Below are positions 38,629 to 49,852 of a stretch of 64,000 nt of DNA, piece by piece. This DNA is from Hymenobacter setariae. GTDB taxonomy: Bacteria; Bacteroidota; Bacteroidia; Cytophagales; Hymenobacteraceae. The stretch covers positions 558,001 through 622,000 of the forward strand of contig NZ_VMRJ01000003.1 in NCBI RefSeq assembly GCF_007713685.1, given 5' to 3'. The notes under the pieces are model-generated. The model was not told the origin of the DNA, did not search any database, and was given only the letters and a program-made list of their open reading frames with translations. The position numbers were made by a program, and so were the translations under genes. The number at the start of each line of letters is the position of its first letter. Positions within the stretch are counted from its first letter, which is position 1.

Positions 38629-39618
38629 TTACCTGCGTTTTCCTAGCTGCTGCGCTAACTGTTGTAAGGCCAGCAGTGTCAAAACCAAAGTGCCACCTGC
38701 ACTGGCCAGTATCCACCAAGCGCTCGGTTCCTGTTGCAGCGCACCGAGCAAATTTCCCCAGCTAGGTACATCGGGGGGCCGCCCGACTCCTAGAAAGGCC
38801 AGCGTACTCTCTAAGCCGATGAGGCCGGCTAGGCTGAGCGGCGCGGTAGCCAGCAGCGGTCGGCACGCGTGCGGTAGTGCGTGCCGGTACCACACGCGCG
38901 TAGGGGCTAGGCCCGCCGCCCGTGCCGCATCTACAAAGGATAGCTCACGCACGCGTAGCATTTGAGCACGCACTTGGCTGGCTGGCTCGGGCCAGGCCAC
39001 CAGCACCAGCAGCACTACTAGCTGCACAGTACCTAGGGCGGGGCCGGCCGCAAAGACCAACACCAGCACGAGGCGGGGTACGGCACCTAGCAGCGTGAGT
39101 GCACTTTGAAACAGACTGTCGAGGGGTAACGGCCAACCACTTGGCTTAGCAGCGTGCGAGCGCTGGTACCACCAGGCAAGCCCTGCTAAGCCTACCAGTG
39201 CTAGCGAACACGGTCCCCGGCCAGGCAGTGCCAAGGCCCACCAGCCCGCAGCTGCCCCAGCAAGCCAGCCGGCCCACGACACGCGCAGGCCTTTATTGCC
39301 CCAGAAGCCTGCTGCCCCCCCAGTCAGTGCCCCAACTATTGTTGCTAATAAAGTTGCAGGTAGGCTGACACTAACTACTTGCCAAGCTCCATAAAGCAAT
39401 TCGGTGAGCACATCGCGGCCTTGTAGGTCGGTGCCCAGCCAGTGCGTAGGGCTGCTGGCCCACAAGGGTGCTTCGGCTATGTGTTGCAAGTCGGGCACAG
39501 CGGGCGGAAACACTAATGGTAGCCATGGAGCCAGTAGGCCTCCACCTAACACCAGTAAGAGCCAGCTCACCCCAAACCAAAAACCAGTGGCGCGAGCACG
39601 AAAAACGGGCTGGCTCAT
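38629..39618 (-). CDS. Peptide-type ABC transporter permease (DppC/OppC-like)
   Basis: A 329-residue inner-membrane protein with the DppC plan: N-terminal helix (WFGVSWLLLVLGGGLLAPWL), HWLGTDLQGRDVLTELLYGA, several helices, and the coupling loop FVDAARAAGLAPTRVWYRHA, followed by LIGLESTLAFLGVGRPPDVP and SWGNLL. A segment with additional helices (around GAAAGWWALALPG and SLALVGLAGLAWW) is inserted in the middle, unlike the standard permease. It overlaps the upstream permease gene by 4 bases. It should form the pore with that partner for importing peptides. Confidence 0.88.
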   Translation of the reverse strand: MSQPVFRARATGFWFGVSWLLLVLGGGLLAPWLPLVFPPAVPDLQHIAEAPLWASSPTHWLGTDLQGRDVLTELLYGAWQVVSVSLPATLLATIVGALTGGAAGFWGNKGLRVSWAGWLAGAAAGWWALALPGRGPCSLALVGLAGLAWWYQRSHAAKPSGWPLPLDSLFQSALTLLGAVPRLVLVLVFAAGPALGTVQLVVLLVLVAWPEPASQVRAQMLRVRELSFVDAARAAGLAPTRVWYRHALPHACRPLLATAPLSLAGLIGLESTLAFLGVGRPPDVPSWGNLLGALQQEPSAWWILASAGGTLVLTLLALQQLAQQLGKRR

Positions 39619-40691
39619 GACAGCAGGCGAATGCGCGGGTCGGCCCAGGCGTACAGCGCATCAGCTAAGGCCAATGCGAGCAGCCGGGCCAACGCTGTGA
39701 GTAATACACCAGCTACTACCACTGGGTAGTCGTGCATCGCTACAGCTTCGGCCAACAGGCGACCAGTACCAGGTACAGAAAAAATCTTTTCTACAACTAC
39801 AGCCCCCGCTACTAGGGTTGGCAGCAGGCCCGCAAAAGCGGTCAGCAGCGGTAAGATGGCGTTGGGCAAGGCATGTTTCTGCAGCAGTTGGCGGTTGCTC
39901 AGTCCCTTGGCGCGAGCCGTGGTGGCATAATCACTGCCTAGCTCGTGGCGAAGAGTGTGTGCCAGTAGCAGCGCTAGCTCAGGCAATACGGCCAGCACTA
40001 GCGCTAGCACGGGTAGCACCAGCCGCAGGGCTTGTTGGTCCCACAACTCGTCGGTATCAGCCGAGCCCGCGTAGGCCGGCAAGATGTTGAGCATGTCAGG
40101 ATTGGCGAGGGTAAACAACAGGCCCAGGGCTAATGCAAAAAGTGGTAGCGCTTGCAGCCCCGTCAGCAGTGTATGTAGTCCTGCTCGCCAGCCAGAAAGC
40201 GCCGGCGCTGAAGGCCCGCCTGCTAGTGTTAACCCCAGCAGCAATGCTCCAGCGATGGCGCCTAGGGTGGCTAGCCCCGTGAGGGGTAGCGTGTAGGCTA
40301 AGGCAGCGCGCCAGCGCGGCCCGATGGGCTGACCGTCGCGAAAGGAAAGCCCTAGCTGACCATGTAATAGCCCCACAAGCCACTGGTGGTATTGGTTGTG
40401 CAAACCATGCCAGTGCCACTTTACTACCCCCACTTGCTGGGTGCGCGTGACGTAAAAAAGAGGTGCTTCTAAGCCGAGGCGCTGTTTGATGGCTTGGCGA
40501 GCTTGGCGCTGAGTAGCGTCTGTATCGGTTCGCAACGCCGTGCTATTGAGACTATCTACTTCGCTTAGTAATAAGTCAGTAGCTTTGGCAGAGTCAAGGC
40601 GGCTTAGTAGAAACACTAGCGAGGCAATAGCCCAGGCGGCCAGGGCAGCTCGCCCCACTTGCGCCACTAGCCAGCGCCCTAGGAGTGTCAT
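39615..40691 (-). CDS. Peptide-type ABC transporter permease (DppB/OppB-like)
   Basis: A 358-residue inner-membrane protein. It shows the DppB features: N-terminal helix, LSFRDGQPIGPRWRAALAYT, several helices, and the coupling loop YATTARAKGLSNRQLLQKHA followed by LPNAILPLLTAFAGLLPTLV. The segment before the second helix (SEVDSLNSTALRTDTDATQR) is longer than usual and probably periplasmic. Start and stop overlap neighbours by 4 bases on both sides, so the three genes form one tight operon. Confidence 0.9.
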   Translation of the reverse strand: MTLLGRWLVAQVGRAALAAWAIASLVFLLSRLDSAKATDLLLSEVDSLNSTALRTDTDATQRQARQAIKQRLGLEAPLFYVTRTQQVGVVKWHWHGLHNQYHQWLVGLLHGQLGLSFRDGQPIGPRWRAALAYTLPLTGLATLGAIAGALLLGLTLAGGPSAPALSGWRAGLHTLLTGLQALPLFALALGLLFTLANPDMLNILPAYAGSADTDELWDQQALRLVLPVLALVLAVLPELALLLAHTLRHELGSDYATTARAKGLSNRQLLQKHALPNAILPLLTAFAGLLPTLVAGAVVVEKIFSVPGTGRLLAEAVAMHDYPVVVAGVLLTALARLLALALADALYAWADPRIRLLS

Positions 40692-42430
40692 TGCTGCGCC
40701 AGTGCGGGTGCTGCGTTAGCAGCCCACGTTATGGTTGGCGCACTATAACCAGGCCTGAGTGCCGACGGATACAAGTTTTGTAAGCGCCGGTCGGCTACCA
40801 AGCGGTAAGACAAGAAAAAGAGAGGCACAAGTGGTGCCTGCTGCTGTAGCATTACTTGGAAGCGATACAGCAACTGGCGCTTTTGGACCGGCGTTTCGGC
40901 AGTGGCCACTGCTTCGATGAGCCGGTCGGTAGCTGGCGTCCCAAATTTGGTGAAGTTCCCTTCCTTAGCGTTACGCGAATGCAGCATGGCCGCATAGTCA
41001 AACGCAAAAGGATTCCCCTTTTGGATGCGTATATACATGTCAAAGTTACCCTCGCGGAGGGCAGTCGTCAGCAACGAACTTTCAGTAGGCCGCAACTCTA
41101 CAGGGATATTGAGCAGCGCAGCCGCCGCCTTAAACTGCAGGGCAATGGTTTGGAAGGTCGGCTCGTCGGTGCGGTAGCGTAGCATCAGGGCTAGGCGTTC
41201 GGCCTGGCTGCCCACAGCTGAGCGCGTCCAGCCAGTGGCTTGCTGCGTCCAGCCTGCGCGTTGCAACAGGGTTTGGGCTTGCGGCAAATTATAGGCGGGC
41301 AGCGGCAGATTACTAGCGTAATAGCGACGGTCGCCGGGGTGCACCAAGCCCACCGTGCGCTGGCCCTGGCCTAGCTGCGTAGCTTGTAGCAAGCGGGCGG
41401 GGGCAAACAGCTTGCTCAAGGCTTGGCGCGTAAGCGAGTCGCGCAGCAGGGGGCGGCGCGTATTGAAGCCAGCGGTTACAACCTCGTAAGAAACAGTAGA
41501 GTAGAATGCGAAGCTTTGCCGAGCAGCCGAGGACTCCTGCAAGCGCTTAAAATCGCGTGCTGATACCTGAGGCAGCACATCTAGCTCGTGGCGCCGTAGC
41601 GCTAGGGCGGCCGTCGCATCATCCGCAATGATACGGAAGTGCAGCTTGGCTGGCTTAGCCTGTAGCACAAATGGTGCTGGGCGCAAGTTATCGGCCCACC
41701 AGTGCGTCTTGCGCTCGAAGGTCAGGTATTGATTGGTTTTCCACTTGGCCAGCTTATAAGGCCCGCAGCCAGGCAGCCGCTTAGGGTTCCTGCCTAGGTC
41801 GGCTTGCTGGTAGCGAGTTACTAAGGCAGCTAATGTGGGCTCAGTAGCATTAGCTGTGGCCACGCTCGCCACCGAAAACTTGCGCAGGCTATGTGTAGGG
41901 TCCAGGGCGTCTTCTGGTACGATGGCAAAATCACCAGACTCAAAGCTAAATTCCGGCGCTTGCCCACGGCACACTAGTGTAAAACGACGTGGGTTGGTGG
42001 GGTCAAGCTTGATGTCGCGAATGAACCCAAGTGGAGCCCGAGCCTTTTCATTGGGCAAGCCAGGGCAAAAAATTAGCTTCAGCGTGAAGGCTACATCGGT
42101 AGCTAGCACTGGGCGGCCATTGTCCCAGCTTGCGGCGCGGCGCAGCTGGTACTGCAAGTGCGTAAGCGAGTCACCTAGCAGGCGAGTTCGGGGCAAAGAG
42201 TCAGCTAATGCTGGCGAATAAGTCCCCGTTGACAAGTCGACTTGTAGCAAGCTGCAGTGGAGCAATGTGGCGGCGTCAACTGCATTTTGGTTAGGCTGGG
42301 CTAGTGGTGACAAATTCTCTGGGTCGCGATTCCAGCGAATATTCACCGTGGTACCTGCTTGTTGCTTAGCTGGTAAGGAGCATGAACTACTACCAAGTAC
42401 TAGTACCCAACTAAACCAAAGATATTTCAT
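40688..42430 (-). CDS. Peptide-type ABC transporter substrate-binding protein
   Basis: A 580-residue family 5 solute-binding protein (DppA/OppA type). It has a lipoprotein-like start (WVLVLGSSSCSLPAKQQ), then WNRDPENLSPLAQPNQNAVD, LADSLPRTRLLGDSLTHLQY, ASWDNGRPVLATDVAFTLKL, LPGCGPYKLAKWKTNQYLTF and LVHPGDRRYYASNLPLPAYN. It should capture peptides and hand them to the permeases encoded next. No ATPase gene follows in the operon, so a shared ATPase must serve it. The repeat-peptide gene lies 58 bases upstream on the same strand. Confidence 0.9.
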   Translation of the reverse strand: MKYLWFSWVLVLGSSSCSLPAKQQAGTTVNIRWNRDPENLSPLAQPNQNAVDAATLLHCSLLQVDLSTGTYSPALADSLPRTRLLGDSLTHLQYQLRRAASWDNGRPVLATDVAFTLKLIFCPGLPNEKARAPLGFIRDIKLDPTNPRRFTLVCRGQAPEFSFESGDFAIVPEDALDPTHSLRKFSVASVATANATEPTLAALVTRYQQADLGRNPKRLPGCGPYKLAKWKTNQYLTFERKTHWWADNLRPAPFVLQAKPAKLHFRIIADDATAALALRRHELDVLPQVSARDFKRLQESSAARQSFAFYSTVSYEVVTAGFNTRRPLLRDSLTRQALSKLFAPARLLQATQLGQGQRTVGLVHPGDRRYYASNLPLPAYNLPQAQTLLQRAGWTQQATGWTRSAVGSQAERLALMLRYRTDEPTFQTIALQFKAAAALLNIPVELRPTESSLLTTALREGNFDMYIRIQKGNPFAFDYAAMLHSRNAKEGNFTKFGTPATDRLIEAVATAETPVQKRQLLYRFQVMLQQQAPLVPLFFLSYRLVADRRLQNLYPSALRPGYSAPTITWAANAAPALAQQ

Positions 42431-42488
42431 TTAACTGCGCGGTGAAATAGCAACACCAGCAAGTTAAGAAACTATCGGCTAACGACGC

Positions 42489-42713
42489 TTAGTCGTTCTC
42501 CCAGCCGCTGCCGCCGATTTTGCTCGAGGTAGCATCATTTTCCCAGCCGCTGCCGCCGATTTTGCTCGAAGTGGCATCATTTTCCCAGCCGCTACCGCCA
42601 ATTTGGGTCGAAGTAGCGTCGTTCTCCCAGCCGCTGCCGCCGATTTTAGTAGCAGGTGCATCGCCAGTGAGGGTAGCGAACTGAATCAGGGCGATGATAA
42701 AGAGGTCAAACAT
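42489..42713 (-). CDS. Four-repeat small peptide gene (IGGSGWEND repeats)
   Basis: A 74-residue protein. Residues 1-18 (MFDLFIIALIQFATLTGD) are hydrophobic without a basic start, more leader-like than a standard signal peptide. The rest is four units of 14 residues, each ending in the invariant core IGGSGWEND, separated by APATK, ATSTQ, ATSSK and ATSSK, and the protein stops right after the last END. The units differ at many silent positions while the core is unchanged, so the peptide sequence is under selection. No known family matches. It is 58 bases upstream of the peptide importer operon. It could be a secreted multi-copy signal peptide, a multi-core modified peptide, or a small structural protein; no modification enzyme is adjacent. 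Confidence 0.75.
   Translation of the reverse strand: MFDLFIIALIQFATLTGDAPATKIGGSGWENDATSTQIGGSGWENDATSSKIGGSGWENDATSSKIGGSGWEND
42492..42659 (-). repeat. Four tandem 42-base coding repeats
   Basis: Units 42492-42533, 42534-42575, 42576-42617 and 42618-42659, each exactly 42 bases, so the frame is kept. Differences between units are mostly silent inside the IGGSGWEND codons and amino-acid changing in the spacer codons. There are no unique spacers, so it is not a CRISPR array. Confidence 0.9.
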
Positions 42714-43092
42714 GGTAGAGATGTTAAGAGGGTTGTGAAATTGTTGCGGTGATTAACTGTGACAAAATTCCGCTACCCAGGAGCCTCCTTAAAGGACAGT
42801 CTTACAGAAAACAAGACAATGTTTTAAATAAGATTTTTTATAACTCATTATAGGCAGTGCCGCAAATGTAGATGATGCACTGCAATAAAAGCGCTACAGT
42901 TGAACCCATTTTTTGCAAAAAAAAGTGGAAATTGTGACATCGCTTCGAGGAAGAAATCACACTTTTCCATATTACAAAATTCCTGTTTGGGTCTAAAGTC
43001 AGCAAGGACATTTTACTTCTTTTTTTGCGTGCTACTTTTAGGGTAATTATGAACGCGATACTGCGCTATTAGCCTATTAACACGCTTTTCCT
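42714..43092. other. Divergent intergenic region with a candidate -7 box
   Basis: AT-rich 379-base region between the repeat-peptide gene (minus) and the helical protein gene (plus). A minus-strand box TACATTTG (42863-42870) matches TAnnTTTG and would give the peptide gene a leader of about 145 bases. On the plus strand TACTTTTA (43033-43040) is a near match ahead of the 43093 gene. No hairpin or palindrome stands out. Confidence 0.45.
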
Positions 43093-44601
43093 ATGAAGGA
43101 AATCGCAAATCTGGCCCGAATTGTGACATTGCGCCGCCTCAAAAATGAGCCCTTGCTCGATTTGAATGGGAAGCAGCCAGGCAAAGAAGTACAACTGGCT
43201 ACGTTGCTAGCGGCAGACGTAAATGTAACAGCCCTAGGCCTCGTTAAGCAACTGTATGGCAAGCACACAAGCGCTAACCAAACAGCCTTTCTGCGACTAC
43301 GCGTCAGGGTGCAGGACAAGCTGCTGAATCATCTTTTCTTTCTCGACCACTCTGACACGCGACTTTTCGTTGCTCGTCGCTACGAGTTAGAATGCCTTGA
43401 CTTGCTGCACAAAGTAACTATCCTGTACCTAGAAGGAGAGTACGTACTCAGCGAGCGCCTGCTGAGGCGCTGCTTGCGGGCGGCCGAAAAAGGCGAGTTT
43501 ATTAACTATGCTGAGCAGGCTTGCCACCGATTATGCACGCTATATGCTGGGCAGCGGCAGCAGCATAAATACACGGCTGCCACCAAAAAACTGCACAAGC
43601 TGCGTCAAATTCTGGCTTACGAACACGAGTCGGAGGAGCTAGCTACGCAAATCAGCCTCACCATGCGGCGGCCTGTAGCAGTGCGGCAGGCACTACTGCC
43701 TAAGATGGCGGCGCACCTAGAAAAAGCGCAGCTGCTGCATCAGAAAGCTAAAACTTTCACCACTTTTCTAACGCTCTACCGACTGCGCTTGGTGCAGGCT
43801 GGGCTCGCGGGTGACTATAACGAAATAATACGTTCGACTACGGCTGCCACACAGATGCTGCGTAAGGGTAAGCTTAATGAGCGTCGCTTTGACCAGCGGT
43901 TTAATCAGTTTATGAGCGTGTACGCGCACTTACGGGGGCGCCAGTACACGGCAGGGCTGAAGCTTGCTGAAGAGTACGCCGCCAATTTGCACCCTACCTC
44001 CAACAACTGGTTTTACTATTACGAGCACTACATTTTACTTGCGTTGCACGCTGGCGAATACGACAAAGCATTGCTGCTGCTACATACCGTGCATAAAAAC
44101 CCTTCGCTCTCAAAGCAGCGCCCAGCAGCGCAAGAGCGGTGGGGTTTGCTACAAGCCTATGTAGAGTTTGTGCAGCCGCCCGATAAAATACCCCTGCGTC
44201 GCCGCAACCAACTAGCCATATTTGCCGCGCTAACCGTGCCTGAATACGCCCGCGATAAGCGTGGCTATAATGTGGCCATTCTTGTTTTTCAGCTGCTTCA
44301 CTACTTGCGGCAGCGGTCGCTAGAGCCAGTACTGACGCGCCTCGAGCGCCTGCGCAAATACCAGCAGCGCCACCTGCGCGATGCAGCCACCTTACGTAGC
44401 CGGCTGCTGCTGCGCTTGTTGCTGCTGCTGCCTGAGGGCGAGTTTGACCCCACTGCACTGGCGAAGCGGGGGCAAAACCTACTAGCGCAGCTAAGCCAAG
44501 CCCCAATGGTGGGCGAGGCCGATGCCGAAATTGAAATCATTCCCTACGAGCAAGTGTGGACGCTCGTCTTGGATATTCTGCGTAGTGGAGCGCCGGAATG
44601 A
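43093..44601 (+). CDS. Large all-helical protein of unknown family
   Basis: A 502-residue protein without signal peptide or membrane segment. Its make-up (Leu, Ala, Arg, Gln, Tyr-rich amphipathic helices, for example YELECLDLLHKVTILYLEGE, FLTLYRLRLVQAGLAGDYNE, YYEHYILLALHAGEYDKALL) suggests TPR-like or other helical repeats. The N-terminus has KNEPLLDLNGKQPGKEVQLA and FLRLRVRVQDKLLNHLFFLD, which may be a separate domain. I see no helix-turn-helix or catalytic motif. It is divergent from the repeat-peptide gene, so a role as peptide sensor is tempting but only inferred. Its stop is two bases from the end of the convergent PKD gene. Confidence 0.85.
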   Translation: MKEIANLARIVTLRRLKNEPLLDLNGKQPGKEVQLATLLAADVNVTALGLVKQLYGKHTSANQTAFLRLRVRVQDKLLNHLFFLDHSDTRLFVARRYELECLDLLHKVTILYLEGEYVLSERLLRRCLRAAEKGEFINYAEQACHRLCTLYAGQRQQHKYTAATKKLHKLRQILAYEHESEELATQISLTMRRPVAVRQALLPKMAAHLEKAQLLHQKAKTFTTFLTLYRLRLVQAGLAGDYNEIIRSTTAATQMLRKGKLNERRFDQRFNQFMSVYAHLRGRQYTAGLKLAEEYAANLHPTSNNWFYYYEHYILLALHAGEYDKALLLLHTVHKNPSLSKQRPAAQERWGLLQAYVEFVQPPDKIPLRRRNQLAIFAALTVPEYARDKRGYNVAILVFQLLHYLRQRSLEPVLTRLERLRKYQQRHLRDAATLRSRLLLRLLLLLPEGEFDPTALAKRGQNLLAQLSQAPMVGEADAEIEIIPYEQVWTLVLDILRSGAPE

Positions 44602-44603
44602 CC

Positions 44604-45200
44604 CTAGGGTACCACTACTACTTCGCGAGTGGCACAGTGGCTATCGGCACAATCGCCGGGGCCATAGCCGCGCAGGCTCAGGCGCACCGCGTAGCGGCCC
44701 GCCCGGCGAAAAGTATGCTCTATGCGATGGCCCTGCTGGGTGGTGCCATCGCGAAAATCCCAGATATAAGCAATGTTCTGGCACGTGGGTAGGCCCGAGT
44801 CTAAGGCATCAAAGGCAATAGCCTGACCCACGTGCACGGTGGTAGCCGGGAAGCTAAAGTTGATAACGGGCTGCGTTACTAGGTCCACCTCAAAGGTCTT
44901 TTCGGCCCGGCGCACTTCGCCCGTCGCGGAGACCTCGACATCAAGCACTACTTGGTAGCGGGCCCGCCGCTTGTAGCAATGGTTGATAGTGAAACCGCTG
45001 AGCGTGGTGCTGTCGCCCATGTGCCAGCGGTATACTAGATTGCCCGCGGCGGCATCAACAGAGCGGCTCGCGTCAAAATCGACGCATAGCTGTGGCAGTA
45101 AGGGCGGGCCACAGTCGGCAGCGGCCGACTGGGCGTGGGCCGCATGCCAAGTGCTGGCCCCAAGAGCCGCGGCACACACCAAAACACGAAAAAAACGCAT
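44604..45200 (-). CDS. Secreted PKD-domain protein
   Basis: A 198-residue protein with a signal peptide (VLVCAAALGASTWHAAHAQS) and two PKD-type beta domains: VYRWHMGDSTTLSGFTINHC with YKRRARYQVVLDVEV (about 55-105), and YIWDFRDGTTQQGHRIEHTF with RRAGRYAVRLSLRG (about 144-180). PKD domains mediate protein or sugar contacts outside the cell. No sorting domain of the type IX system is present. Downstream of the response regulator gene. Confidence 0.85.
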   Translation of the reverse strand: MRFFRVLVCAAALGASTWHAAHAQSAAADCGPPLLPQLCVDFDASRSVDAAAGNLVYRWHMGDSTTLSGFTINHCYKRRARYQVVLDVEVSATGEVRRAEKTFEVDLVTQPVINFSFPATTVHVGQAIAFDALDSGLPTCQNIAYIWDFRDGTTQQGHRIEHTFRRAGRYAVRLSLRGYGPGDCADSHCATREVVVVP

Positions 45201-45281: not shown

Positions 45282-46049
45282 TTAGAGGCGATTGAGCCGC
45301 TGCAAGACGTTGCGCAAGTAGGTCTGGCCCACAGGGATATATTTGTCTCTGACTAGCAGAGAGTTGTCTTCCAGCGCTTGGATGCAGTTAATATTCGCAA
45401 TAAAGGAGCGATGGACGCGCAGGAATTGCGAGGGAGGAAACTTCTCTTCAATGGCCCGCATCGTGCTGTACACTATCAACTTGCTTTGGGTCGTGACGAT
45501 GTGTACGTAGTCACCTAGGGCCTCTACGTATTGCACCTCTCGAAAATCAACCCGCACTAGTTTGGTATCCATTTTCACAAACGTGAAGTCGGGTTCCGTT
45601 GTCGAAGTAGGCGTGGGGCTCAGCGTATCAGGCTCAGCCGTCCGCTCGGCCGTGATATTTTCAAGAACTTTCTGAGCAGCTTGCAAAAAGCGCGGATAGG
45701 ACAATGGCTTGAGCAGATAGTCAGCAACCGCGAATTCGAACGCTTGTACCGCGTAGTGGTCGCTACTGGTGATGAGTACGACCTGTGGTAGCTCAGCTTG
45801 CAGGCGCAGTAGGTCGAGTCCTGACATCAAGGGCATCTCAATGTCTAAGAAAAGCACATCTATAGGTTCGGCTTGAGTGCGCAGTACCTCAGCGGCTTCC
45901 ATGCCACTGCTGCACGAGCCAACGGCTTGCAGAAAGGGGGTGTTGGCAATGCAGTTCAGCACTATTTGTACCGACAAAGGGTCATCGTCCACTACTAAAC
46001 AGCGCAGGGGAGGAAGGATGGGAGCAGGCTCTGGTAGCGTAGTAGGCAT
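45282..46049 (-). CDS. LytTR family response regulator
   Basis: A 255-residue transcription regulator. The receiver domain (about 12-130) has the acidic pair in CLVVDDDPLSV and the phosphorylation Asp in DVLFLDIEMPLMSG, with Lys in YLLKPLSYPRF. The LytTR DNA-binding domain (about 155-255) shows FVKMDTKLVRVDFREVQYVE, GDYVHIV and FLRVHRSFIANINCI. It is 173 bases downstream of the hybrid kinase gene on the same strand and is its likely output partner. Confidence 0.95.
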   Translation of the reverse strand: MPTTLPEPAPILPPLRCLVVDDDPLSVQIVLNCIANTPFLQAVGSCSSGMEAAEVLRTQAEPIDVLFLDIEMPLMSGLDLLRLQAELPQVVLITSSDHYAVQAFEFAVADYLLKPLSYPRFLQAAQKVLENITAERTAEPDTLSPTPTSTTEPDFTFVKMDTKLVRVDFREVQYVEALGDYVHIVTTQSKLIVYSTMRAIEEKFPPSQFLRVHRSFIANINCIQALEDNSLLVRDKYIPVGQTYLRNVLQRLNRL

Positions 46050-46222
46050 AGTAATACGGATGGTTTATAAAGGCTGTTAAGTAGAGGCGAAAAATTGTAT
46101 AAATTTAATGTGTGTTGCTATGTGTTAGCTACAAAAAGCGTAATCTTTTACGAAGTAAAAGTGAAGTTATGGTGTAGACGGTAAGTAGCTCCTGATTAAG
46201 AGCACCTAGTGGGCTGCATAGG

Positions 46223-49200
46223 CTAAGCGCGTTCTTCTAGGTGCGGATAAAGCTGCCCTAGCTGCTGCCGAATGGCGAGGAGCAATGGCTCGCAGTGCTG
46301 GCAATCGGCGCGGCGGGCACTGCGCTCTAGCTCATCTAGCTGAGTATGAAGCACCGGCACCCCGAAATAAGCTACTTGGCCCTTGAGCTTATGCGCTACC
46401 TGCGCGAGCTTATCGGCATCGTGGGGAAAAGCCGCGGTTAGGACCTCTTCTAAAGAGGGTGCTTCGCTCAAAAAAGTATTGACAATCTGCTTAATAAAAG
46501 CCTCGTTGCCACAGGCCAGTTCTTCGAGTAGCTGCCAATCGGGGCGCAGTATAGGAAGGGGGACAGCTGCAGGTTCGCCTAAGTTGGATTGCGTTGCTAC
46601 CGCATCGGTAGAGGCTGTGGGCTGCCGGCCAGTGAAGTAGGCCAACCGTGCATGTAGCAAGGCAGGGTCGAAGGGCTTGGCGAGCGTATCGTTCATACCA
46701 GCGGATAGGGCCAGGCCACGGTCTTCGGGCAGCACCGAGGCTGTGAGACCAATAATGGGCAGGCGCCGCTCGTCGGGGAAAAACTCGCGCAGGGCCCGGG
46801 TGGCTGCGTAGCCATCGAGTTCAGGCATCTGCACATCCATCAGCACGGCGTCGAAGGGTTCGGCGGCTTGGGTGGCTTGCTCTACAGCCAGGCGCCCATT
46901 GGCGGCAATGACGACGTGCACGTTCCAGTTTTCCAGAGTTTTGCGCGCTACCAATTGGTTTAGCTCGTTGTCTTCGGCCACCAACACGCGCAGCATGGGC
47001 TCGAAGGCCGGTAGCGGACCCGTGTGCACCTCGGGCTGCGCCAGCGTGGCATCGGCGATGGGGTAGGTGAGCTCAAAAAAGAATTCTGAGCCTACGCCTT
47101 CGGTGCTACGCACGCTTAGCTGGCCACCATGCAACTGCACTAGATTGCGGGCGATGCTCAAGCCCAGGCCTGTGCCCCCAAACTCGCGAGTAGTGCTAGC
47201 GTTAGCCTGCGAAAAGTCTTCGAAGATGGCGTTGAGCTTCGTGGCGGCGATACCAATGCCAGTGTCTTGCACCGCAAAGCGCAGCGCCACGTGTGAGGCA
47301 TCGGGGGCGGGGGGCACTGCAAGATTGACTTGCACTGACACGCTGCCCTGGCGTGTAAACTTTAGCGCGTTACTGACTAGGTTTATCAGTACTTGCTGCA
47401 GGCGGGTAGGGTCGCCGAGTACAGCGGCGGGTACTTCGGGCGCTACCTCTATCGTTAGCTGTAAGCCTTTGCTATCGGCCGCGTAGCGAAACATAGTGCT
47501 GAGGCGGCGTACCGCATCGGGTAGGCGGAAGGGAATCTGCTCCAGCGTCAGCTTGCCGGCCTCCATTTTAGAGGAGTCCAGAATATCATTAAGAATGACC
47601 AGCAAGTTCTGTGACGAGGAGCCGATGGCCGTGAGATACTCAGCTTGCTCGCGGGTAGGCTGCGTATTTTGAAGCAGGTTGGTGAGGCCAATAACGGCGT
47701 TCATTGGGGTGCGAATTTCGTGGCTCATATTGGCCAGAAATTGGGCTTTAGCCCGGCGCGAGGCCTCGGCCGCATCGCGGGCCACGAGTAGCTCCCCGTT
47801 CATTTGCTCGATGTGCGCGTTTTTTTGGCGAAGCTCGCTGGTGCGCTGGCGTACCGTGCGCTCGAGGTGGGCGCGCTGGTGGCGCAGCAGGCGCTCGCGG
47901 CCCCGCACCACTAGCACAGCCCCGCTCAGCACGGCCAGCGCCCCTAGGGCCAGTACCCAGGGCTGCTGCCACCACGGCGTGGCGATGCTAAAAGGAGTGC
48001 TAACCACCGGGCTCCAGGCAGTGGCGGCTGGGCTGGCGTAGCGAGCTCGCACCTCGAGTAAGTAGCTACCTGCGCCCAAGCCTACAAATTGGGCCTCGCC
48101 TGCTGGGCTAGGGCGGCTCCAATCGGTAGAAAGACCGTGTAACCGGTATTGGTAGAGCAATGGGGCATCACCTGCCGCTAAGCTCAGACCTTGAAAAGTG
48201 AAGCTGACGCGGTGCTGCTGCGCCGAAAGCTCGCCGATAGCGGTGGGCAAACGGCTTTCACCGTCTACTTCGGCGCCGGTGAGGGCCAAGCTAGGTGAGG
48301 CTGCCGTGCGCGCAAACCAGGCTAGCAGCGCCTGCACATCTAGGCGGAGTAGTCCGGCTTGGGTGGCTACCCAGGCAGTAGGCTGGCGCCCATTTAACAC
48401 TGCTGCAGCAGGCAGGAAATTGCGGGCTAAAAGGCGAATGGAGCGCCCCGTGCGCCGCCGGGTATCAAGCAAGGTGAGTGCTTGCGGGTGCACCAGCAGC
48501 AAGTACTCACCTAGGGGCGCCATAGCTAGGGTATAATCGTCGAATGAGCCAGCAGGCCCCGTTCCTGAATTAGAGAACCGACTAGCGCCTGCAGGTAGGT
48601 AGTAAAGCCCCTGACCCTCGGTGCCCACCCAAATGGTGCCTAGGTTGTCTTCGCTCAGGGTATTGACTGCCAAGCCACTGGCGTGCACTCGGTAATGCCG
48701 AAAGCGGCGGCTCCTCGGTTCCCAAGCCGAGAGGCCAGTGCCGTGCGTACCTATCCACACACGGCCGGTGCGGTCGGCTAGTAGCGCGTAAATCTGATTG
48801 TGCAGCAGGCCGTTGGCTGTCGTGAAATGCACGGCGGGTAGCGAAGCCACCCCACTGCTCGACAGCGGCAGGTAATAGATGCCATCGGCCACGGTGCCCA
48901 CCCATAGCCCCGACCCTGGCGCGTATGCCAGGGCCGCTACTGCTAGTCCCGGTGGCAAGCCCAGCACTCGGGCAGCTGGGGCGCCGGGTTTAGCGGCCGT
49001 CCACACGCCCCCTTGTTCCCGGCCTTCCCACACGCCCCCTCCTAGAGCGGCCGGCCGGGGCAAAAAGGTGCGTACTGGTGCTGCTAGCAGGCCACTACTG
49101 CCGGCGCTGGCCAGCGTATGCACAGGGTTATCAAGCAGGAAAAAGCGCGAGCCTGCCGCTCCCCAAATAGCCGTAGCCGCGCCGGCCAGGAGCGCTGGTG

Positions 49201-49852
49201 CTAGCGTAGTGCCCGCCGCAGCATAGTTAGTAGGCAGCGGTACTAGGGTCACGAACCGGTCGCTATGCCGCCACAGGCCCTGGCCGGAGGTGCCCAGCCA
49301 GGCATTGCCATCCCGGTCTTCGAGCAGGCAGCTCGGGGTGACATCGGCGGGCAGCGGCAGCGGGTAGCGGCGCAGATAGGCACGCAGGCGTGCCGTGTCG
49401 GGCGCCGGGGGGCCGGGGGCTGGTGGGCGCCAGCCCTGGGGCAGGGCTACCGTAGCCGCTACGGCTTGGAAATTGGCACCCGGAGTGGCACGTAGCGAGC
49501 GCCCTCCCTCGCGATGCGCCACCCACAAGCGGCCAGTACTAGGCTCTTCCCATAGGCCGGTTACGAAGTCTTCGGCAAGGCCATCGTGGGTGGTGAGCGT
49601 GACAAAGCGAGCGCCATCATACCGCACTAAGCCCTCGGCGGTACCTAGCCACAGGTAGCCTTGCCGGTCTTGTAAGAGGCAGTAAATAAACGTCTGGCTA
49701 AGGCCATCGGCGGGCCCAAACTGGCGCACGAATGCGTGGGGCGCCGGCAGCGGCGTGGCACGCGCGGGCCCGCCCAGCACAAGCAGGCAGAACACCGCCG
49801 CCAACCAGCGAAGACGGGTAGTAAGTACAACAACTACAGAACAAACGCGCAC
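46223..49852 (-). CDS. Hybrid sensor histidine kinase with beta-propeller sensor, receiver and HPt domains
   Basis: A 1209-residue membrane protein. After a signal (LRWLAAVFCLLVLGGPARAT) come two-component propeller repeats (FGPADGLSQTFIYCLLQDRQ, GYLWLGTAEGLVRYDG; HNQIYALLADRTGRVWIGTH), a Y_Y_Y domain (VSFTFQGLSLAAGDAPLLYQ), one membrane helix (about 620-640), a coiled segment, HisKA with AQFLANMSHEIRTPMNAVIG, the ATPase domain (LINLVSNALKFT, GTGLGLSIARN), a receiver (VLVAEDNELN, AVLMDVQMPELDG) and a C-terminal HPt with the His in AHKLKGQVAYFG. Unlike Bacteroides one-protein regulators it has no AraC-type output, so it must signal to a separate regulator. It starts at GTG 49852. Confidence 0.93.
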   Translation of the reverse strand: MRVCSVVVVLTTRLRWLAAVFCLLVLGGPARATPLPAPHAFVRQFGPADGLSQTFIYCLLQDRQGYLWLGTAEGLVRYDGARFVTLTTHDGLAEDFVTGLWEEPSTGRLWVAHREGGRSLRATPGANFQAVAATVALPQGWRPPAPGPPAPDTARLRAYLRRYPLPLPADVTPSCLLEDRDGNAWLGTSGQGLWRHSDRFVTLVPLPTNYAAAGTTLAPALLAGAATAIWGAAGSRFFLLDNPVHTLASAGSSGLLAAPVRTFLPRPAALGGGVWEGREQGGVWTAAKPGAPAARVLGLPPGLAVAALAYAPGSGLWVGTVADGIYYLPLSSSGVASLPAVHFTTANGLLHNQIYALLADRTGRVWIGTHGTGLSAWEPRSRRFRHYRVHASGLAVNTLSEDNLGTIWVGTEGQGLYYLPAGASRFSNSGTGPAGSFDDYTLAMAPLGEYLLLVHPQALTLLDTRRRTGRSIRLLARNFLPAAAVLNGRQPTAWVATQAGLLRLDVQALLAWFARTAASPSLALTGAEVDGESRLPTAIGELSAQQHRVSFTFQGLSLAAGDAPLLYQYRLHGLSTDWSRPSPAGEAQFVGLGAGSYLLEVRARYASPAATAWSPVVSTPFSIATPWWQQPWVLALGALAVLSGAVLVVRGRERLLRHQRAHLERTVRQRTSELRQKNAHIEQMNGELLVARDAAEASRRAKAQFLANMSHEIRTPMNAVIGLTNLLQNTQPTREQAEYLTAIGSSSQNLLVILNDILDSSKMEAGKLTLEQIPFRLPDAVRRLSTMFRYAADSKGLQLTIEVAPEVPAAVLGDPTRLQQVLINLVSNALKFTRQGSVSVQVNLAVPPAPDASHVALRFAVQDTGIGIAATKLNAIFEDFSQANASTTREFGGTGLGLSIARNLVQLHGGQLSVRSTEGVGSEFFFELTYPIADATLAQPEVHTGPLPAFEPMLRVLVAEDNELNQLVARKTLENWNVHVVIAANGRLAVEQATQAAEPFDAVLMDVQMPELDGYAATRALREFFPDERRLPIIGLTASVLPEDRGLALSAGMNDTLAKPFDPALLHARLAYFTGRQPTASTDAVATQSNLGEPAAVPLPILRPDWQLLEELACGNEAFIKQIVNTFLSEAPSLEEVLTAAFPHDADKLAQVAHKLKGQVAYFGVPVLHTQLDELERSARRADCQHCEPLLLAIRQQLGQLYPHLEERA

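Follow-up and report, generated by a model that had tools for sequence, protein, structure and literature searches.

Receptors of the NprR/PlcR/AimR branch of peptide-pheromone signalling carry a DNA-binding domain, and in the ComS/XIP-ComR and SHP-Rgg systems a short hydrophobic precursor bears the signal at its C-terminus and the peptide is taken up by an Opp importer. For cytoplasmic peptide-pheromone receptors fed by such an importer, the literature that we found describes Gram-positive bacteria, their phages and plasmids. Articles on the RRNPPA systems report pheromones at the C-terminus, propeptides with several copies of the signal (up to six) and a doubling of propeptide genes (PMC9765709; PMC11343458), and some Rap-Phr precursors carry repeated signals (PMC11343458). 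Here, we analyzed a window of 64,000 nucleotides, the whole stretch of DNA to which all positions refer, from contig NZ_VMRJ01000003.1 of the 6.1 Mb genome of Hymenobacter setariae, and we describe a cassette coding for a small peptide precursor, a binding lipoprotein, two ATP-binding cassette (ABC) permeases and a divergent helical protein. We consider it rather probable that this cassette is an autocrine peptide-signalling circuit, RRNPP-like in plan, in a Gram-negative phylum, since such a circuit best explains the combination of linkage, precursor architecture and receptor-like fold.

Transcription on the minus strand runs from the peptide gene over the binding lipoprotein and permease 1 to permease 2. 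The precursor gene (42489..42713, minus strand) encodes 74 amino acids with a hydrophobic leader, a short linker and four IGGSGWEND cores separated by ATSxx spacers. After a gap of 58 bp between peptide stop and next start, it is followed on the same strand by the gene of an extracellular solute-binding lipoprotein of family 5 (Opp/Dpp/Nik type; 40688..42430; Pfam SBP_bac_5, E 6.7e-44) and by the genes of two ABC permeases, one of the OppB/NikB type (39615..40691; BPD_transp_1, E 3.5e-25) and one of the OppC/NikC type (38629..39618; BPD_transp_1, E 3.8e-19), with all three Pfam matches above gathering scores. Divergent from this series, the plus strand encodes an all-helical TPR-like protein of 502 amino acids (43093..44601), which we propose as the cytoplasmic peptide receptor. 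This layout agrees in every part with the original prediction, from the 58-base gap and the co-directional binding protein and permeases to the divergent 502-residue protein. No ATPase gene is present in the cassette. In searches of the own genome, the helical protein, the binding protein and the peptide were each found as one copy, and a second peptide match reached an E value of 0.46 only and was put down to chance. The five cassette proteins gave no match in PADLOC, and a plasmid search returned two weak matches.

The plan of the cassette is shared in part with Rap-Phr systems of Bacillus, phages and plasmids (Phi3T, CSF-bound 4gyo, pLS20), in which a TPR-type receptor likewise adjoins a small signal precursor, with export being predicted in our case. 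Rap proteins also obtained the highest structural scores against the helical model, and repeated signals occur in some of their precursors as in the cassette. Unlike Rap-Phr, the cassette has a precursor gene divergent from the receptor gene, brings its own importer genes, belongs to another phylum and shows no sequence homology, and the Rap match leaves the first part of its helical protein uncovered. ComS/XIP-ComR and SHP-Rgg differ from the cassette in leader and receptor, and the importer lies outside their cassette. For the NprR/PlcR/AimR branch, multi-copy propeptides of up to six are reported (PMC9765709), compared with up to about 20 cores here. The binding protein and the permeases are clear members of the Opp/Dpp/Nik importers (SBP_bac_5, BPD_transp_1), but unlike these importers in general they have no ATPase gene in the cassette and are consistently linked to genes for a peptide and for a helical receptor-like protein. 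Among the literature matches listed, with preprints and most subscription papers outside the scope, no peptide-pheromone system of this type was described for Bacteroidota, which agrees with the earlier statement that nothing comparable was known in this phylum.

The linkage of the three parts was followed across the family. The helical protein was detected in 196/204 family genomes from all six genera (6/6) and the binding protein likewise in 196/204; both are missing from the same eight genomes (G011, G013, G045, G069, G089, G097, G104, G124). One main locus was inspected in 162 of the 196 positive genomes, including that of H. setariae, the other 34 belonging to g4 (5) and g5 (29). For genomes with two helical genes, we used the locus having importer or peptide, and counts are per genome and not per helical gene; paralogue loci (L048, L054, L055, L057, L059) and repeat loci (L058, L060, L069) stand outside the 162. 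By a fixed rule that asked for a hydrophobic start, a G-x-W core close to the C-terminus and a length of 38–320 residues, a peptide gene was called in the divergent interval of 158/162 genomes compared with 3/174 other window intervals and 27/954 shuffled ones, where precursors running off the end were accepted in loci shorter than 3.6 kb and not in the controls. The remaining 4/162 carry a peptide gene whose leader or tail falls outside the rule, which brings the total to 162/162. Given these control counts, the placement of the peptide gene is not due to chance. An earlier, looser rule, which found 143/162 and was positive in 38/176 control intervals, was superseded.

The binding-protein gene comes next on the same strand after the peptide gene in 154/162 genomes. 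In five of the other eight, the fetched stretch stops at a contig end (L023, L025, L103, L134, L135), and three are rearranged: the binding protein of G107 (L140) is found about 6.5 kb away within one contig, and those of G056 (L052) and G109 (L051) lie beside a second helical gene. Of 32 main loci covered with flanks of about 5 kb, all but L051 and L052 carry both permeases (30/32). Spacing is also conserved, with a median of 368 bp from helical start to peptide start (5–95% range 340–378 bp; 139/162 measurable) and a median of 79 bp from peptide stop to the nearest ATG of the binding protein (< 150 bp in 142/145 measured). This order is kept in six genera, though the identity of the binding protein drops to about 34%. 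The co-occurrence and order in relatives by which the original prediction could be checked were thus found in nearly every genome inspected, with a linked peptide in all loci and a co-directional binding protein in the great majority.

The precursor reads MFDLFIIALIQFATLTGDAPATK, then four IGGSGWEND cores with the spacers ATSTQ, ATSSK and ATSSK, and its C-terminus is the last core. A position profile of 162 precursors delimits the leader as residues 1–18 (MFDLFIIALIQFATLTGD; 42660..42713, minus strand), and the translation places core copies 1 to 3 at 42618..42644, 42576..42602 and 42534..42560 and copy 4, at the C-terminal end, at 42492..42518, all on the minus strand. Compared with its closest relative (L002), 18 codons differ, of which 16 are synonymous and 2 nonsynonymous; so far as its codons tell, the peptide gene evolves like coding sequence. 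The plan of the precursors is a hydrophobic leader with one or several cores at or near the C-terminus. Conservation of the leader follows an unusual pattern, with Q11 in 140/162 and L9 in 138/162 genomes, and the linker is of low complexity (25% T, 13% A, 13% S, 7% P). A G at −4 from the last W was present in 162/162 precursors, a spacing that is not imposed by the search rule. In g2–g5, all 42 precursors (g2 8, g3 2, g4 11, g5 21) have a single core and 2–11 residues from W to the end, with ends such as YGGTGTWDTRD and IGTSGWDDRN. Single cores were also found in 24/112 g1 and 4/8 g6 precursors, and the others have 2 to about 20 cores, where counts by pattern are approximate for the longest precursors and too low where a contig end cuts the precursor. 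One locus (L035) has three consecutive precursor genes. A match of the peptide to ComC stayed below the cut-off (E 0.0018) and was put down to chance.

The helical protein has no Pfam or NCBIfam family match, weak generic TPR matches occurred in a few of 45 relatives, and a PDB sequence profile search returned only a designed protein at E 0.015. The AlphaFold2 model is all-helical, with a predicted local distance difference test score (pLDDT) of 90.6. A second structural look, with VIA-align, covered 957 of the PDB chains ranked best by Foldseek; its top seven rows were Rap receptors (Phi3T, CSF-bound, pLS20) with Z scores of 17.2–15.9 over 266–301 residues and root-mean-square deviations of 3.8–5.2; rows 8–10 were NprR, NprR and AimR (Z 15.2–14.8), with more AimR and RapI rows lower. 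The match spans roughly residues 137–500. Because helical models may reach a Z of about 14 with this tool without kinship, the comparison of the predicted fold supports a resemblance to Rap receptors and does not prove RRNPP membership. The earlier description as TPR-like and of unknown family holds in that the protein lies outside Pfam and NCBIfam families and its helical model resembles Rap; it gains no backing from sequence homology to RRNPP receptors. Within the N-terminal part, R72 and K76 are invariant in 45 sequences; further invariant residues of the protein are N305, W306, E311, W350, K389 and K422. A winged-helix (OmpR/SARP-like) domain in this part, an idea prompted by a Trans_reg_C match (E 0.001 in 1/45) and by inspection by eye, was unsupported by Pfam on ten N-terminal pieces, by PDB profiles (weak Pyrin matches only) and by a fold search of a poor model.

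For the importer, permease 1 was matched by Opp2B (E 1e-44) and permease 2 by Opp4C (E 7.4e-42), each under the curated cut-off. The designation as a peptide-type importer is retained at the level of the Opp/Dpp/Nik type; the sequence does not settle between peptide, nickel and metallophore. Two oligo_HPY regions, which mark the ATPases of Opp/Dpp/Nik importers, were found at one locus outside the cassette in 13/13 genomes tested, with those of G089 on two open frames. G138 and G167 have the binding protein of the cassette as their only SBP_bac_5 protein and keep the oligo_HPY ATPase, which suggests at the level of gene content that the unlinked ATPase serves the cassette importer. In H. setariae, an OppDF-like ATPase gene (L304) and a second, different family 5 binding-protein gene (L305) both lie on contig G000:C7. 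Inspection by eye of the 4.5 kb around this ATPase gene revealed no recognisable gene for a permease or binding protein, and no importer partner of the second binding-protein gene was recognised in the stretch fetched.

In the proposed circuit, the hydrophobic start of the precursor would direct its insertion in or export across the inner membrane, and cutting of the precursor would yield short peptides around G-x-x-x-W (IGGSGWEND in H. setariae). The lipoprotein would capture the peptide in the periplasm, from where the two permeases would re-import it with energy from an OppDF-like ATPase encoded elsewhere. In the cytoplasm, the divergent helical protein would bind the re-imported peptide, altering the activity of a partner or promoter; the target probably includes the cassette's own divergent promoters with TTGTGACAT boxes.

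One TTGTGACAT box lies about 155 bp 5′ of the start of the helical-protein gene (42932..42940, plus strand), a second within the start of this gene (43121..43129, plus strand; codons ATT-GTG-ACA), and a third, partial box, TGTGACA, in the divergent region (42758..42764, plus strand). On the strand of the helical gene, TGTGACAT boxes occur in the divergent region of Hymenobacter loci. The 8-mer of the box was found in 80/139 intergenic regions, where 0.8 were expected, and TGTGACA stands 145–160 bp upstream of the helical gene in 70/112 g1 loci. At the box within the gene, ACA codes the threonine in 49/62 genes (9 genes without the motif being left out), and elsewhere in these genes ACA makes up 12% of threonine codons. 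Outside g1, a looser box was detected in 8/27 intergenic regions, all eight from g6. The conservation of these boxes points to local control and plausibly to autoregulation of the cassette. Across the 6.1 Mb genome, WTGTGACAT has 13 sites (29 for the reversed control), of which two are in the cassette; of the other 11, seven are inside mechanically called open reading frames (ORFs), one (L301) is at an ORF start and three are between ORFs. As the genome has fewer sites than the reversed control and most of the other 11 are inside ORFs, we regard the box as mainly local and did not retain a genome-wide regulon. The three sites between ORFs (L294, L298, L302) and the one at the ORF start are possible further targets. 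Many loci of one Hymenobacter group (L018–L030) show in addition an inverted pair, TGTGTCA ... TGACACA, about 26–45 bp before the peptide start.

The eight family genomes without helical and binding protein show what remains when the cassette is gone. In these, the genes that border the cassette in Hymenobacter, RmlD on one side and a PKD-domain protein, a LytTR response regulator and a hybrid sensor kinase on the other, are found together, and no cassette proteins were detected at that site in 8/8. The gap between RmlD and PKD measures 51–139 bp in five genomes and 694–802 bp in three, which have other sequence between (L201, L204, L205). Another SBP_bac_5 protein is kept in seven of the eight. 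In a 62-row tree of the LytTR protein, well-supported branches require two changes, and a single clade of the eight losers was rejected (approximately unbiased test, p-AU 1e-7), with seven in one clade and G104 apart; this loss tree represents one neighbouring gene, and G104 is 82% complete and has a long branch. Judged by this tree, two lineages have lost the cassette, each time as a block. In H. setariae, the PKD-domain protein, the LytTR response regulator and the hybrid sensor kinase are encoded beside the cassette on the minus strand at 44604–45200, 45282–46049 and 46223–49852, and they form a neighbour group in many g1 and g6 loci. The LytTR response regulator and the hybrid kinase (45282–49852) were considered as receptor partners and not counted in the cassette, because they still stand beside RmlD in the eight cassette-less genomes and because they were not recognised as neighbours in g2–g5, where the hybrid kinase alone gave weak matches, in L033 and L034.

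Beyond the family, relatives of the helical protein were detected in 119/390 genomes of the order and in 21/395 genomes of an even draw of the phylum. The full set was seen in L072, a locus of family f5 within the order, whose precursor ends in CAIGWDDND; another locus (L071) has the helical protein and a peptide-like gene without importer, as by eye do L078 and L087. A partial permease-like ORF lies at the stretch edge of L079. In 6/36 loci outside the family (L078, L085, L087, L317, L321, L323), a small protein whose hydrophobic start is similar was seen in divergent orientation, in a scan that was made by eye with no control count and whose filter misses L071 and L072; most other loci show none, and we regard these putative small proteins as a lead only. 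Helical and binding protein also occur together without recognised permeases in L048, L051, L052 and L057, the last of which retains a peptide-like gene.

Several observations weigh against a peptide-signalling circuit of this plan. No sequence homology of the helical protein to the RRNPP receptors Rap, NprR, PlcR, Rgg and AimR was found, and Foldseek gave no match below E 1e-3, with the first Rap at rank 38. In the second look, NprR and AimR tie with unrelated TPR proteins, the first being LGN (Z 14.8), and a lead over LGN of at least 1 Z unit, a small margin, is held by the Rap rows only. The first 106 residues modelled alone reach a pLDDT of 70, and since they fold poorly alone and match nothing, a DNA-binding domain of the kind carried by NprR/PlcR/AimR receptors was not shown in the N-terminal part by Pfam, PDB profiles or fold search. 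Since homology was tested and not found, and since peptide binding, export and output are predicted, we call the cassette RRNPP-like in plan and do not class it as an RRNPP member. The logic of RRNPP signalling that the original prediction read into the locus is partly borne out, in the linkage of the three parts in relatives and in the top position of Rap in the structural second look, and not in sequence. The leader has E at position 3 in 90/162 precursors and does not show the basic n-region of the usual Sec signal. The importer superfamily also carries nickel and metallophores, and in G104 (82% complete) the ATPase is kept and no SBP_bac_5 was found, so that retention of the ATPase is not proof of its role. 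In the order's other families, 19/20 loci fetched had no recognised binding protein next to the helical one; no box was seen in g2–g5; and several paralogues are without peptide by the scan rule (L048, L054, L055, L059 and one copy each in L051 and L052), as is a second, diverged copy of the helical protein directly behind the first in g5 (L040, L042, L043, L044). Because the cassette is one block, its joint loss is weaker evidence than the loss of unlinked genes, and because the genes are linked, this linkage partly explains their shared presence and absence.

This linkage is also a ground for regarding the genes as coincidental neighbours retained by vertical descent, given that they are apparently inherited vertically in the family and their joint presence is not independent evidence. 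We nevertheless hold such a coincidence to be very improbable: the order outlasts the divergence of the binding protein in six genera, helical and binding protein recur together even where no permeases are recognised, and the PKD, LytTR and hybrid-kinase genes behave differently, being mostly not recognised beside the cassette in g2–g5 and staying when the cassette goes. A functional unit of another kind would be an importer for a nutrient or metal (nickel, metallophore) controlled by the helical protein, with the small protein as a membrane-anchored accessory or metal-binding subunit. The PDB relatives of the binding protein are NikA, AppA, MppA and YejA, of which NikA is the best (E about 5e-13); NikA is also its best NCBIfam model (1.8e-24, far below the cut-off), and H and D occur in many Hymenobacter cores (e.g. 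HGTSGWGDGH). However, AppA/MppA-type peptide-binding relatives score close behind NikA, a core number from 1 to about 20 is hard to fit to a subunit of fixed stoichiometry, the linker is a low-complexity stretch of T, A, S and P, and the pair of helical protein and peptide-like gene also occurs without importer, as seen in L071 and judged by eye for L078 and L087. On balance, we consider a metal or nutrient importer unlikely.

The precursors themselves, with multiple cores at conserved spacing, resemble those of ribosomally synthesized and post-translationally modified peptides (RiPPs), and the peptide could be a ribosomal product such as a bacteriocin, RiPP or surface repeat peptide, with the importer serving recycling or immunity and the helical protein acting as regulator or secretion adaptor. 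This appears improbable to us, as the helical protein, the binding protein and both permeases occur together in nearly all main loci with about 5 kb of flank, most single-core precursors end at the core or a few residues beyond, and among the window genes adjoining the cassette we recognised neither a modifying enzyme nor an exporter; flanks of other loci were compared with the window proteins only, and a modifying enzyme there could be missed. We give a similarly low chance to a small membrane protein that is not secreted, binds the helical protein directly in a membrane contact and relays how active the importer is, with no peptide being released. The strong conservation of the leader, above all of Q11, seems unusual for a cleavable export signal and fits a specific membrane contact, but such a sensor offers no evident use for tandem cores in the tail or for precursor genes in tandem.

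Returning to the RRNPP-like circuit, a broader reading is quite possible and is put forward more tentatively: Bacteroidota may own old peptide-pheromone systems, in which a cytoplasmic helical receptor, from a family scattered through the phylum, is paired with a divergent precursor that has a short hydrophobic leader and a C-terminal signal. In the Hymenobacter family the pair would work with a dedicated importer, and in Hymenobacter tandem amplification would have brought the signal to as many as about 20 copies, the whole being convergent with, or very distant kin of, the Firmicute RRNPP systems. Since the candidate ligand can be read from the genome, testing with synthetic peptide is possible at once. 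If the proposed circuit is true, such signalling would have arisen, or persisted, in bacteria on either side of the envelope divide, and Hymenobacter and its relatives would have a candidate quorum-sensing system.

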